A DNA stretch of 50,745 nucleotides from Pseudomonadota bacterium (GTDB taxonomy: Bacteria > Pseudomonadota > Gammaproteobacteria > Acidiferrobacterales > Acidiferrobacteraceae). The notes below the pieces were generated by a model. It did not search any database and was not told the DNA's origin. It worked only from the letters and a program-made list of their open reading frames with translations. Shown here piece after piece: positions 39,660 through 43,275 of this stretch (within the stretch, counting starts at the first letter, position 1; each line of letters starts with the position of its first letter). The stretch lies in contig JAJYDT010000011.1 in assembly GCA_021777335.1 (NCBI GenBank), positions 1 to 50,745 of the forward strand, read 5' to 3'. A program made the position numbers and the translations under genes.

Positions 39660-39861
39660 ATAATGTCCTACTTTAGGCGTAAAGAAAGCGGGCAGTGTCG
39701 GATGAAGGAGCGCAGCAGCCAGACGGGACGCCGGCTCTATGCGGACGAGGACTTTGGCGTGGAGCTCAAATTTGCCTCGAGGATGATAGGCCGTTCTTTA
39801 CGCGCCGATTGCTCAGTATCCCGGATGCAGTTACGGCAGCATGGCTTCAAGACTATTTTCA
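39660..39861. other. left flank of RIT element, possible truncated gene
   Basis: A plus-strand frame running into the left inverted repeat reads CLEDDRPFFTRRLLSIPDAV and TAAWLQDYFHYAE. The composition is protein-like and could be the start of a gene cut by the RIT insertion, but neither the family nor a continuation on the right side (43276 onward) was recognised. Confidence 0.35.
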
Positions 39862-39953
39862 TTATGCCGAGCGGACGATTATGCCGAACGGGGGTGTTTT
39901 GGCCGCTCGCAACGCTGATTTGCAGGGATCCCGCTCGGCATAGTTTCCTGGCT
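39862..39953 (+). repeat. RIT left inverted repeat (92 bp)
   Basis: Exact reverse complement of 43152-43243. It contains two direct motifs, TATGCCGAGCGG (39863-39874) and TATGCCGAACGG (39880-39891), and one inverted motif, CCGCTCGGCATA (39931-39942). These are candidate recombinase-binding arms. It ends 31 bp before the first recombinase ATG, so the promoter for the operon must lie largely inside it. Confidence 0.92.
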
Positions 39954-39984
39954 TCTCCTTTCATCATGGAACGGAGAAGCAGAG

Positions 39985-41226
39985 ATGAGCAAACCAGGAT
40001 TTTTCGCATTTTCGGGTACACGTCGTCGTATGTACGCGGGCCCTCTGGGTTCGTATATCGACGATTTCATTGGGCTGCTTCAAAAGCAAGGGTACAACCG
40101 CCATTCGATTCGCTGCAAGATTCGATCGGTTGCCGCTTTCAGTCGCTGGCTTGGTCGCCAGGATGGCGCACGGGAGGACGTGGATTCCGATCAAGTGTGC
40201 CAATTCCTGGCATATCGTCAGCGCCGTGGTCGCTACGATCTGGGTGACAACGCCGCGCTACGGCAGATGACCGATCTGTTGCGCAGCAAGCGGGTTGTGC
40301 CCGCCGTGACTTCATCAAGGCGCCTCGGTGAGCGCGAGCAGGCCGAAGCGGATTTCCGCCAACACTTGCTGCAGGGCCGCGGATTATCACGGGTAACCTT
40401 AAATTGCTATCAGCGATGCGTGTCGCGATTCCTGCGCGCTCGCTTTGCCGACGGGCCTATGCGGTTCGATCAACTGACCGCGGCCGATGTCACCGACTTC
40501 ATTCAGCGTAATGCGCGCGGATACAGCTTTAGCCGTGGGCAACAGGGGGTGACGGCACTGCGCGCGTTTCTGAGGTACCTTCTTCAACGAGGAAGAATTG
40601 CAATTGATCTCTCCCTCGGCGTGCCGAAGATGGCCTCTTGGTCCTTGGCAAAGGTGCCGGCGTACCTACGCGCTGACCAGGTCGCCCGTGTTCTCAAGAG
40701 ATGTGATCGCCACACGGTCATAGGCCGGCGCGACTTTGCGATCCTGTTATTACTCGCCCGGCTTGGACTCAGGGCGGGCGAGGTGGCCGCCTTGCGCCTC
40801 GATGATGTCAACTGGGAACAGGGATCTGTGACCCTGCGCGGCAAGGGTGGCCGTTGGACACGCCTACCGCTCCCTCATGACGTCGGTGAAGCGATCGTCG
40901 ATTATCTGGCCAATGGACGACCCGCCTGCGCCGACCGTCGCATCTTTCTTCGTGCGCACGCCCCCCAGGGGGGATTCCGGGACGCCACGGCGATTTCAAT
41001 CATCGCATCGCACGCCTTGGCGCGGGCGCGGATCGATCACCCGCGCGGCGGAGCGCATGTATTTCGCCATTCATTGGCCACCGAGATGCTCCGCCAAGGA
41101 TCTTCCCTCGCCGAGATCGGTCATGTGCTACGGCATCAGCATCCGGACACCACCCGGATCTACGCGAAGGTCGATTTGTCGGCTTTGCGAGAACTGGCGA
41201 TGCCGTGGCCGGGAGGTGCGCGATGA
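39985..41226 (+). CDS. ritA: RIT tyrosine recombinase A
   Basis: This is a 413-residue phage integrase family recombinase. An N-terminal SAM-like core-binding region (about 20-200) precedes the catalytic domain. Catalytic residues visible are Arg I in ARLGLRAGEVAALRLDDV, the beta-hairpin Lys in LRGKGGRWTRLPLP, HVFRHSLATEML (H-x-x-R), the third His in GHVLRHQHPDTTRIYAKV and the Tyr nucleophile in RIYAKV. ATG 39985 has GGAG about 9 nt upstream. Its TGA overlaps the next start as ATGA. In RIT elements the three proteins are not interchangeable and all are thought to be required. Confidence 0.9.
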   Translation: MSKPGFFAFSGTRRRMYAGPLGSYIDDFIGLLQKQGYNRHSIRCKIRSVAAFSRWLGRQDGAREDVDSDQVCQFLAYRQRRGRYDLGDNAALRQMTDLLRSKRVVPAVTSSRRLGEREQAEADFRQHLLQGRGLSRVTLNCYQRCVSRFLRARFADGPMRFDQLTAADVTDFIQRNARGYSFSRGQQGVTALRAFLRYLLQRGRIAIDLSLGVPKMASWSLAKVPAYLRADQVARVLKRCDRHTVIGRRDFAILLLLARLGLRAGEVAALRLDDVNWEQGSVTLRGKGGRWTRLPLPHDVGEAIVDYLANGRPACADRRIFLRAHAPQGGFRDATAISIIASHALARARIDHPRGGAHVFRHSLATEMLRQGSSLAEIGHVLRHQHPDTTRIYAKVDLSALRELAMPWPGGAR

Positions 41227-42155
41227 TTTCCCTTCGCGATGCCATCGAGCAGTACGTGCTATTGCGCCGCGACCTCGGTTTCAAGCTCAACGGAGCGCAG
41301 TACTTGCTTCGCGATTTCGCAGGCTTCATGGAAGATCACGCTGCCCCCTACATCACCCGTGACCTCGCCGTGCAGTGGGCGATGCGGCCTCAACAGGTTC
41401 AGTCCTCGTACTGGGCTCAGCGCCTGATGGCCGTGCGTTGCTTTGCCCGTCACCACAGCGCCACGGACCCCCGAACCGAGATTCCGCCGCCAGATCTGCT
41501 GCGCTATCGTCCCCGCCGCGCCCGTCCCTACCTGTATACCGAGCACGATATCGAGCGGCTGATGGCGGCGGCCAGGGCGTTGCGGCCCGCCGGCAGTTTG
41601 CGTGGTTTGACCTACGCAAGCCTTCTAGGCCTTTTATCGGTCACCGGACTGCGGATCAGTGAGGCACTGGCATTGAGGGCGGCGGACGTCGATTGGCAGG
41701 CGGGTCTGCTGAGGATTCGTAAAACCAAGTTTGGCAAAGCGCGACTCGTTCCGCTTCATTCCTCGACGCGTCGCGGTCTGCGGCAATACGCACGGCAACG
41801 TGATGCCTATTTTGGCTTTCTGCCCACCGCACATTTTTTTCTGTCGAAGGGTGGTCGGCCATTGAGCGCCAACGAGGTTTGGAAGACATTCCGATTGCTT
41901 TGTCGTCAGGTGGGCCTGCATGCGTCCGCCGATTGGGACGAGCCACAGCTGCATCACTTTCGCCACCGCCTGGCGACCGAGTCACTGTTGCGATGGTACC
42001 GCTCGGGCGACGATGTCGAGCAGCGGTTGCCAGTCTTGTCCACGTTCCTCGGACACGCCAGCATCGCCTCGACATACTGGTACCTGTCGAGTCACCCCGA
42101 GCTGATGGGGCGGGCGATGCAACGCCTGGAGCAGCGCTGGGAGAAGACGTCATGA
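41223..42155 (+). CDS. ritB: RIT tyrosine recombinase B
   Basis: This is a 310-residue tyrosine recombinase. Catalytic motifs are LLSVTGLRISEALALRAADV (Arg I), TKFGKARLVPL (Lys), LHHFRHRLATESLL (H-x-x-R) and LGHASIASTYWYLSSHP (His and Tyr). ATG 41223 has GGGAGG 6 nt upstream and overlaps the ritA stop; an in-frame GTG at 41205 is less likely. The gene ends with another ATGA overlap into ritC, so the trio is translationally coupled. Confidence 0.9.
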   Translation: MISLRDAIEQYVLLRRDLGFKLNGAQYLLRDFAGFMEDHAAPYITRDLAVQWAMRPQQVQSSYWAQRLMAVRCFARHHSATDPRTEIPPPDLLRYRPRRARPYLYTEHDIERLMAAARALRPAGSLRGLTYASLLGLLSVTGLRISEALALRAADVDWQAGLLRIRKTKFGKARLVPLHSSTRRGLRQYARQRDAYFGFLPTAHFFLSKGGRPLSANEVWKTFRLLCRQVGLHASADWDEPQLHHFRHRLATESLLRWYRSGDDVEQRLPVLSTFLGHASIASTYWYLSSHPELMGRAMQRLEQRWEKTS

Positions 42156-43150
42156 GTGCTCATACCCCTTTGGCACCGCTGCTCGAACGATTCTTTACTC
42201 AACGGCTGATGACGCAGCGACAAGTCAGTCCCCACACGATCGCTTCATACCGAGACACGTTCCGCCTCTTTTTTCAGTTCGCACGTGAGCGGAGCAAGAA
42301 GGCGCCCTGCGAGTTAGCGTTCTCGGATATCGATGTCGATCTGGTCGAGGCGTTCCTCGCCGACTTGGAGAACGGCCGAGGCATCGGCGCCCGCAGCCGC
42401 AATTTGCGCTTGAGCGCCATTCGCTCCTTTTTTCGCTACGCCGCCTACTATGAACCCGCACATGTCGCGCGCATTCAACAAATCCTGGTTATTCCAGCCA
42501 AACGCCACGATCGCACACTGGTCGGATTTCTCAGCCGGCCGGAAGTCGAGGCCCTTCTGGCGGCTCCGGATCTGCGTACCTGGAACGGCCGACGCGATCA
42601 CGCCCTACTGCGGGTCGCTTTCCAGACAGGGATGCGTCTATCCGAACTGACCGGTTTGCGCCGAAGCGACGTCGAGTTGAGCACTGGCGCACACGTCCGC
42701 TGCTTGGGGAAAGGACGAAAAGAGCGCTGCACGCCGCTGACCTCGCAAACGGTTAAGGTTTTGAAGACGTGGATTGAAGAACCGATGCGCGGTTCATCAG
42801 ACAGGCTATTTCCCACCGTTCACGGTCAACGCCTGAGCGCCGACGCGGTCCAGTACTTATTCGCCAAATACACGGCCATCGCACGCGAGAGATGTGTGTC
42901 ATTGAGGAAAAAACACGTGACTCCGCATATGGCGCGACATACCGCCGCCATGGAGCTTCTGCAGGCCGGTGTTGACGTGACGGTTATCGCTTTGTGGCTG
43001 GGCCACGAGTCGACCAAGACCACCCAAATTTACCTGGATGCCAACCTGGCTCTGAAGGAAACGGCGCTGGCAAAGACGATGCCACTCGCGGGTCGCAGAG
43101 GGCGTTTCCGGCCAGATGACCGAATGATCCAGTTCCTCAACAACCTATGA
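42152..43150 (+). CDS. ritC: RIT tyrosine recombinase C
   Basis: This is a 332-residue XerC/D-like tyrosine recombinase. The N-terminal core-binding domain has FFTQRLMTQRQVSPHTIASY. The catalytic domain has VAFQTGMRLSELTGLRRSDV (Arg I), LGKGRKERCTPL (Lys), VTPHMARHTAAMELL (H-x-x-R), LWLGHESTKTTQIYL (His and Tyr). The start ATG 42152 overlaps the ritB stop; the frame itself is open upstream to 41879, inside ritB. The stop at 43148-43150 lies one base before the right inverted repeat, so the element carries no spare DNA on this side. Confidence 0.9.
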   Translation: MSAHTPLAPLLERFFTQRLMTQRQVSPHTIASYRDTFRLFFQFARERSKKAPCELAFSDIDVDLVEAFLADLENGRGIGARSRNLRLSAIRSFFRYAAYYEPAHVARIQQILVIPAKRHDRTLVGFLSRPEVEALLAAPDLRTWNGRRDHALLRVAFQTGMRLSELTGLRRSDVELSTGAHVRCLGKGRKERCTPLTSQTVKVLKTWIEEPMRGSSDRLFPTVHGQRLSADAVQYLFAKYTAIARERCVSLRKKHVTPHMARHTAAMELLQAGVDVTVIALWLGHESTKTTQIYLDANLALKETALAKTMPLAGRRGRFRPDDRMIQFLNNL

Positions 43151-43151
43151 T

Positions 43152-43243
43152 AGCCAGGAAACTATGCCGAGCGGGATCCCTGCAAATCAGCGTTGCGAGC
43201 GGCCAAAACACCCCCGTTCGGCATAATCGTCCGCTCGGCATAA
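43152..43243 (-). repeat. RIT right inverted repeat (92 bp)
   Basis: Perfect reverse complement of 39862-39953, with the same three TATGCCGA-type motifs in mirrored order. It begins immediately after the ritC stop codon. Confidence 0.92.
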
Positions 43244-43275
43244 AGGAAGTTATGCCGCATGCGGCATAACTTCCT
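43244..43275. repeat. 32-bp perfect palindrome abutting the RIT right end
   Basis: AGGAAGTTATGCCGCA is followed directly by its exact reverse complement. The centre TATGCCGCATGCGGCATA resembles two head-to-head copies of the TATGCCGA motif inside the RIT repeats. No equivalent palindrome adjoins the left end. Confidence 0.85.

Follow-up and report, generated by a model that had tools for sequence, protein, structure and literature searches.

Paired crossover cores around a mobile palindrome as a model for the movement of RIT elements

Knowledge of RIT (recombinase in trio) elements dates back to 2009; their ends, choice of target and movement have remained undefined. In Xer/dif and integron attC recombination, half-sites surround a 6-bp core within a palindromic or foldable site. 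In RITs such as ritA1B1C1 of Cupriavidus metallidurans CH34, a trio of tyrosine recombinase genes in A-B-C order with short overlaps makes up an element of about 3.5 kb that is bounded by terminal inverted repeats (IRs), carries no cargo and is inserted in IS66 tnpA or radC (PMC3414803, PMC2864759). The 2012 RIT paper reported a 28-29 bp inverted repeat with an ‘overlapping palindromic sequence’ and no convincing binding sites (PMC3414803). SEs (strand-biased circularizing integrative elements) have a 6-bp spacer between their end motifs, and the six bases flanking one side enter the circle and land on the opposite side in the next insertion; one SE insertion lies in an IS3 gene, and the 2023 SE paper lists RIT movement as not tested (PMC10214605). 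Tn554-type elements likewise carry in a short flank sequence from the previous site (PMC10214605; Tn552-II report, PMC12486829).

The window, the whole stretch of 50,745 nucleotides analysed here (contig JAJYDT010000011.1), contains an ordinary, complete RIT member with intact genes, identical ends and no cargo, and its overlapping trio, terminal repeats and size of about 3.5 kb are those of the known RITs (Table 1). An earlier note, made from the sequence alone, had described three tyrosine recombinase genes without cargo joined by two ATGA overlaps, perfect 92-bp inverted repeats, a ritC stop one base before the right repeat and visible R-K-H-R-H-Y residues in each protein, and all of this was borne out. 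The genes run in the order A-B-C with no further gene between the repeats, and a single T at 43151 separates the ritC stop from IRR. The catalytic residues (RitA R263, K287, H358, R361, H384 and Y393; RitB R144, K169 or K172, H244, R247, H278 and Y287; RitC R162, K187, H259, R262, H285 and Y294) are invariant in alignments of 13-14 RIT homologues per protein. The three proteins align at 34-89% identity with those of RIT loci that include pHG1 and other plasmid relatives. An AlphaFold2 model of RitA (pLDDT 76) has two four-helix core-binding bundles, in keeping with the two core-binding domains already published for RitA (PMC8138268), with uncertain domain placement (pTM 0.45). The EPS setting given in the earlier note also agreed, as genes for an ATP-grasp protein and a GNAT protein flank the element, and the EPS-type locus around it has Wzy_C, ATP-grasp, GNAT/FemAB-like and glycosyltransferase genes. 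The description of the element as seemingly active fits its intact reading frames and identical repeats.

Table 1. Features of the RIT element in the window
Feature	Position	Strand	Remarks
IRL	39862..39953	+	92 bp, perfect inverted repeat of IRR
Outer half-site 1, TTATGCCGAGC	39862..39872	+	mirror in IRR 43233-43243
Outer half-site 2, TTATGCCGAAC	39879..39889	+	17 bp inside half-site 1; mirror in IRR 43216-43226
ritA	39985..41226	+	413 aa tyrosine recombinase
RitA predicted domains			two core-binding domains, helices 22-101 + 116-201; catalytic domain 227-397
ritB	41223..42155	+	310 aa tyrosine recombinase; ATGA overlap with ritA
ritC	42152..43150	+	332 aa tyrosine recombinase; ATGA overlap with ritB
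IRR	43152..43243	-	92 bp; exact reverse complement of IRL, 92/92
TTTTCA, IR-adjacent outer six	39856..39861	.	predicted native target six, inferred from the rule in relatives
AGGAAG, spacer slot x (internal, IRR to P)	43244..43249	.	geometry GGCAT-N10-ATGCC, which recurs in relatives
P, perfect 20-bp palindrome TTATGCCGCATGCGGCATAA	43250..43269	.	probable right end; module recurs in other RITs
CTTCCT, P-adjacent outer six	43270..43275	.	slot x in reverse complement; predicted to be the coupling six brought in

The earlier note had placed a complete element at 39862-43243. Its completeness stands and its right end does not, since a 6-bp spacer and the 20-bp palindrome P follow position 43243; the element most likely spans 39862-43269, or 3408 bp. 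P is the sole perfect 20-bp palindrome in the window, where about 0.05 are expected, and AGGAAG-P-CTTCCT beside IRR forms a perfect 32-bp palindrome. This spacer-palindrome-spacer module to the right of IRR, overlooked in the earlier note, is the most informative part of the locus. Further copies with the same 92-bp ends had been proposed as a check; neither those ends nor P recurred elsewhere in the 2.57-Mb assembly of the window's own genome (164 contigs). The same genome holds a second, diverged RIT fragment on another contig (G000:C8, about 9.2-10.95 kb; L087 3247-4952), in which a ritA-like ORF is missing its N-terminal part and ritB is cut by the contig end.

A search for the element's DNA in 194 related genomes returned only partial, distant RITs. 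The nearest relative (L025, DLMH01000083.1; 83.5% nucleotide identity, RitA 84% at the amino acid level) lies in an Acidiferrum MAG of the Acidobacteriota, which suggests wide transfer. Its layout is that of the window element, except that CTATCT/AGATAG stands where the latter has CTTCCT/AGGAAG, so the spacers are not part of the fixed element. The earlier note had asked whether the repeats extend far beyond these ends in other copies, or whether the arrangement is fixed at this site in all relatives. The repeats of L025 are not far extended, and as it occupies a different target in an Acidobacteriota MAG, the window site is not a fixed shared one. L025 splits a transposase gene, recognised by its WTYFYLYVILDVFSR motif, with both gene halves visible on either side; the 60-aa left fragment had no Pfam match. 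The window flank peptides matched no Pfam family, and the window target is not identifiable as a gene. CTTCCT-CTACG in the window resembles the L025 transposase site (WTYFYLYVILD), a likeness that is no more than suggestive.

A strict signature of P gave 80 matches in 862 kb of RIT loci, a count that includes overlapping loci and two matches per junction, against 0 in shuffled sequence. P, with differing spacers, accompanies the majority of the RIT elements examined and may lie on either side. Visual inspection found it in almost every element whose IRs could be recognised, IMG/VR contigs included. In all 17 of the 17 well-defined IR ends tested, two direct half-sites lie exactly 17 bp apart. 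Three elements (L028 140-3610, L151 4666-8423 and L172 264-3524) have P at both ends, which a model with a single P does not explain. Two others, L050 and L166, are without P; L166 (1244-4586) has matching IRs with a palindrome on neither side and may be a P-less excision product. In L069, a Rhizobium-family copy (R. leguminosarum 3B pRL3b4), P is gone beyond its first bases and the usual sixes flank the element otherwise. Some RITs (L091 4124-7715, L053 and L092) lie inside recombinase genes of other RITs, giving nested or tail-to-tail trios.

The comparison covered 24 copies whose contexts are known. In Phaeobacter, six identical elements split the zinc motif in ArdC-like genes. The 15 Rhizobium copies, and in addition L069 with its P lost, split the motif conserved at the C-terminus of IS66 transposases, or related sites. 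Three copies of another RIT (L088, L089 and L201) split an IS66 motif in G008, from the GTDB family of the window's genome. In both plasmid families and in G008, P is on the ritA side in some copies and on the ritC side in others. The Phaeobacter and Rhizobium elements enter the same gene motif in both orientations, and the bare IR and P hold a constant orientation relative to the target gene, whichever side P is on. The P-adjacent outer six and the inner slot recur between copies, and the IR-adjacent outer six varies with the target. From the different sites of identical relatives we infer that RIT elements are mobile. Interrupted genes identified by Pfam or by motif encode IS66 TnpC, DUF3489, IstB and a RitC-like tyrosine recombinase, and others are annotated as ArdC/zincin. 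The insertion core falls in strongly conserved codons, and RIT targets are usually conserved codons in genes of other mobile elements.

Uninterrupted sites indicate which six belongs to the target. The IR-adjacent six was present at the uninterrupted site for L060, L063, L059, L058, L056 and L066, that is, in six of seven element/site comparisons and in all five with 60/60 matching flanks. The exception is L061 compared with L102, where the P-adjacent six is found at an uninterrupted site whose left flank is only 93% identical; a second relative at the L061 site has neither six. For L089, the IR-adjacent six recurs unchanged in L182 and with one base different in L181. As L056 and L066 share one uninterrupted site and L182 adds a locus, the native six adjoins the IR at 6 of 7 informative loci, a small sample with a one-sided sign test of about 0.06. 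None of the uninterrupted sites carries P. No uninterrupted site was found for the window element.

The sixes also connect copies with one another. If excision fills the lost slot with the IR-adjacent six, the 24 copies show 11 donor-to-recipient links within strains, Phaeobacter plasmids being pooled. In R. leguminosarum TP16, L056 leads to L063, L067 and L133; L065 leads to L131 in ATCC 14479 and L134 to L070 in strain C104. In Phaeobacter, L060 leads to L055, L058 and L059, and L059 to L061, while in G008, L089 leads to L088 and L201, a readable donor-recipient history. In a permutation test the links gave P values of 0.0008 with sides pooled and 0.013 within side, the latter being no lower because there are few six-mers. 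The links by themselves read equally well backwards in time; the direction comes from the uninterrupted sites. Identical x/y pairs stand at opposite sides in L063/L067 (TP16), L071/L135 (NXC12) and L088/L201 (G008).

The architecture, the placing of P on either side, the shared x/y pairs on opposite sides and the native sixes are all evident from comparison of the copies. The best model for RIT movement, to which we assign a probability of roughly three in four, is a circle junction at which either of two cores can be used and the IR-adjacent six is preferentially inherited. An element with the layout IRL-ritA-ritB-ritC-IRR-x-P would move through a circular intermediate whose junction reads IRR-x6-P-y6-IRL. 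Since IRL mirrors IRR and P is palindromic, such a junction would hold two equivalent Xer-like core sites, each made of a half-site, a 6-bp spacer and a half-site; the arms of P match the half-site of the IR ends, so closure of the circle would create two sites of the form GGCATAA-6-TTATGCC. Either spacer could serve as the crossover core, with crossover at y leaving P on the ritC side and crossover at x leaving it on the ritA side, and a circle able to use either core is expected to yield the same x/y pair at opposite sides. Strand use would be biased, the target's own six staying at the IR and the circle's six landing at P. At the next excision, probably by copy-out, the IR-adjacent six would be copied into the slot left empty, with loss of the P-adjacent six, and x and y would thereby record the latest targets used on each side. 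RitA, with its two predicted core-binding bundles, would be the obvious candidate to bind the tandem half-sites of the IR, and RitB and RitC would bind the half-sites of P and target. For the window element, the model predicts that the original target read GACTA-TTTTCA-CTACGTG and that CTTCCT was present in earlier targets in both orientations; the x and y of this element would be complementary because one target motif was recorded in both slots, once in each orientation. A telomere-like hairpin was considered for the AGGAAG/CTTCCT complementarity and dropped, as other copies have non-complementary x and y.

Other routes could produce parts of this pattern. In an ordinary phage-like or Tn916-like route, double-strand exchange would leave a heteroduplex spacer to be resolved randomly, and either outer six could be native. 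The left and right sixes are often alike and the L061/L102 comparison has the P-adjacent six at the target, both in favour of such a route; the preponderance of IR-adjacent native sixes at the informative loci, small as that sample is, argues against it, and we regard it as distinctly unlikely. Recombination of one folded strand in the manner of integron attC sites, with an IRR/IRL stem, P as the hairpin tip and x opposite y, is an unlikely route. The junction is a near-perfect palindrome, the P module of the window folds at -19 kcal/mol (z -4.4), and one-strand exchange would account for the bias as well as for either side being chosen. However, x and y are often not complementary, and the circles of SE, the nearest analogue, are mainly double-stranded (PMC10214605). 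If the folded-strand route were true, either strand could be cut, the choice determining on which side P ends up, and each strand would keep its own six-base memory of past targets.

That P might be the host target's own palindrome or terminator, with the element merely inserting beside palindromes, is hardly credible. P does lie outside the perfect IR, and the window genome offers no second copy of the element for comparison, but P moves with identical elements into different genes and changes sides, and uninterrupted sites are without it; for the Phaeobacter and Rhizobium families, a host-owned P is refuted by these observations. It is also very improbable that the window element is a dead relic and its palindrome a chance rearrangement. 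Its single copy in the genome would suit a relic, whereas the intact ORFs and catalytic residues, the fully matching IRs and the presence of the same module in many independent elements would not.

The model of two alternative cores would fix the exact ends of RITs, define two core sites and give a testable way of moving, and it would let each copy's history be read from its sixes. It may also explain the sequence variation at RIT ends reported in earlier work. G008, with three RIT copies in IS66 genes, is a good experimental source. In the literature consulted we found no prior description of a dual core or target memory, and priority is uncertain; the 2012 paper describes neither two 6-bp slots nor a side-switching P nor inheritance of target sixes (PMC3414803).

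Compared with Xer/dif and attC sites, the proposed RIT junction would differ by having two overlapping cores that share a palindrome and by belonging to a self-mobilising element; in the window, IntI models score far below cut-off and there is no cassette array. Tn554-type elements share with RITs the use of several recombination proteins and a brought-in flank sequence. Their TnpA/B/C are, however, not a RitABC trio, and the reports consulted describe no IR-palindrome-IR junction for them (PMC10214605, PMC12486829); the window proteins group with RitA/B/C and Xer-type models. The SE/GInt elements have four core genes (intA-tfp-intB-srap, or ginABCD), cargo and one junction spacer, whereas a RIT combines three recombinases with IRs, a 20-bp palindrome and a choice of two spacers; the SE/GInt core set is absent from the window element, which has only three recombinase genes between its repeats. 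The sequence pattern in the RIT relatives agrees with what strand-biased inheritance of a flanking six, as in SE, would leave. The putative six-base bias of RITs resembles that of SE, and the dual core with its palindrome would set them apart from SE as described.
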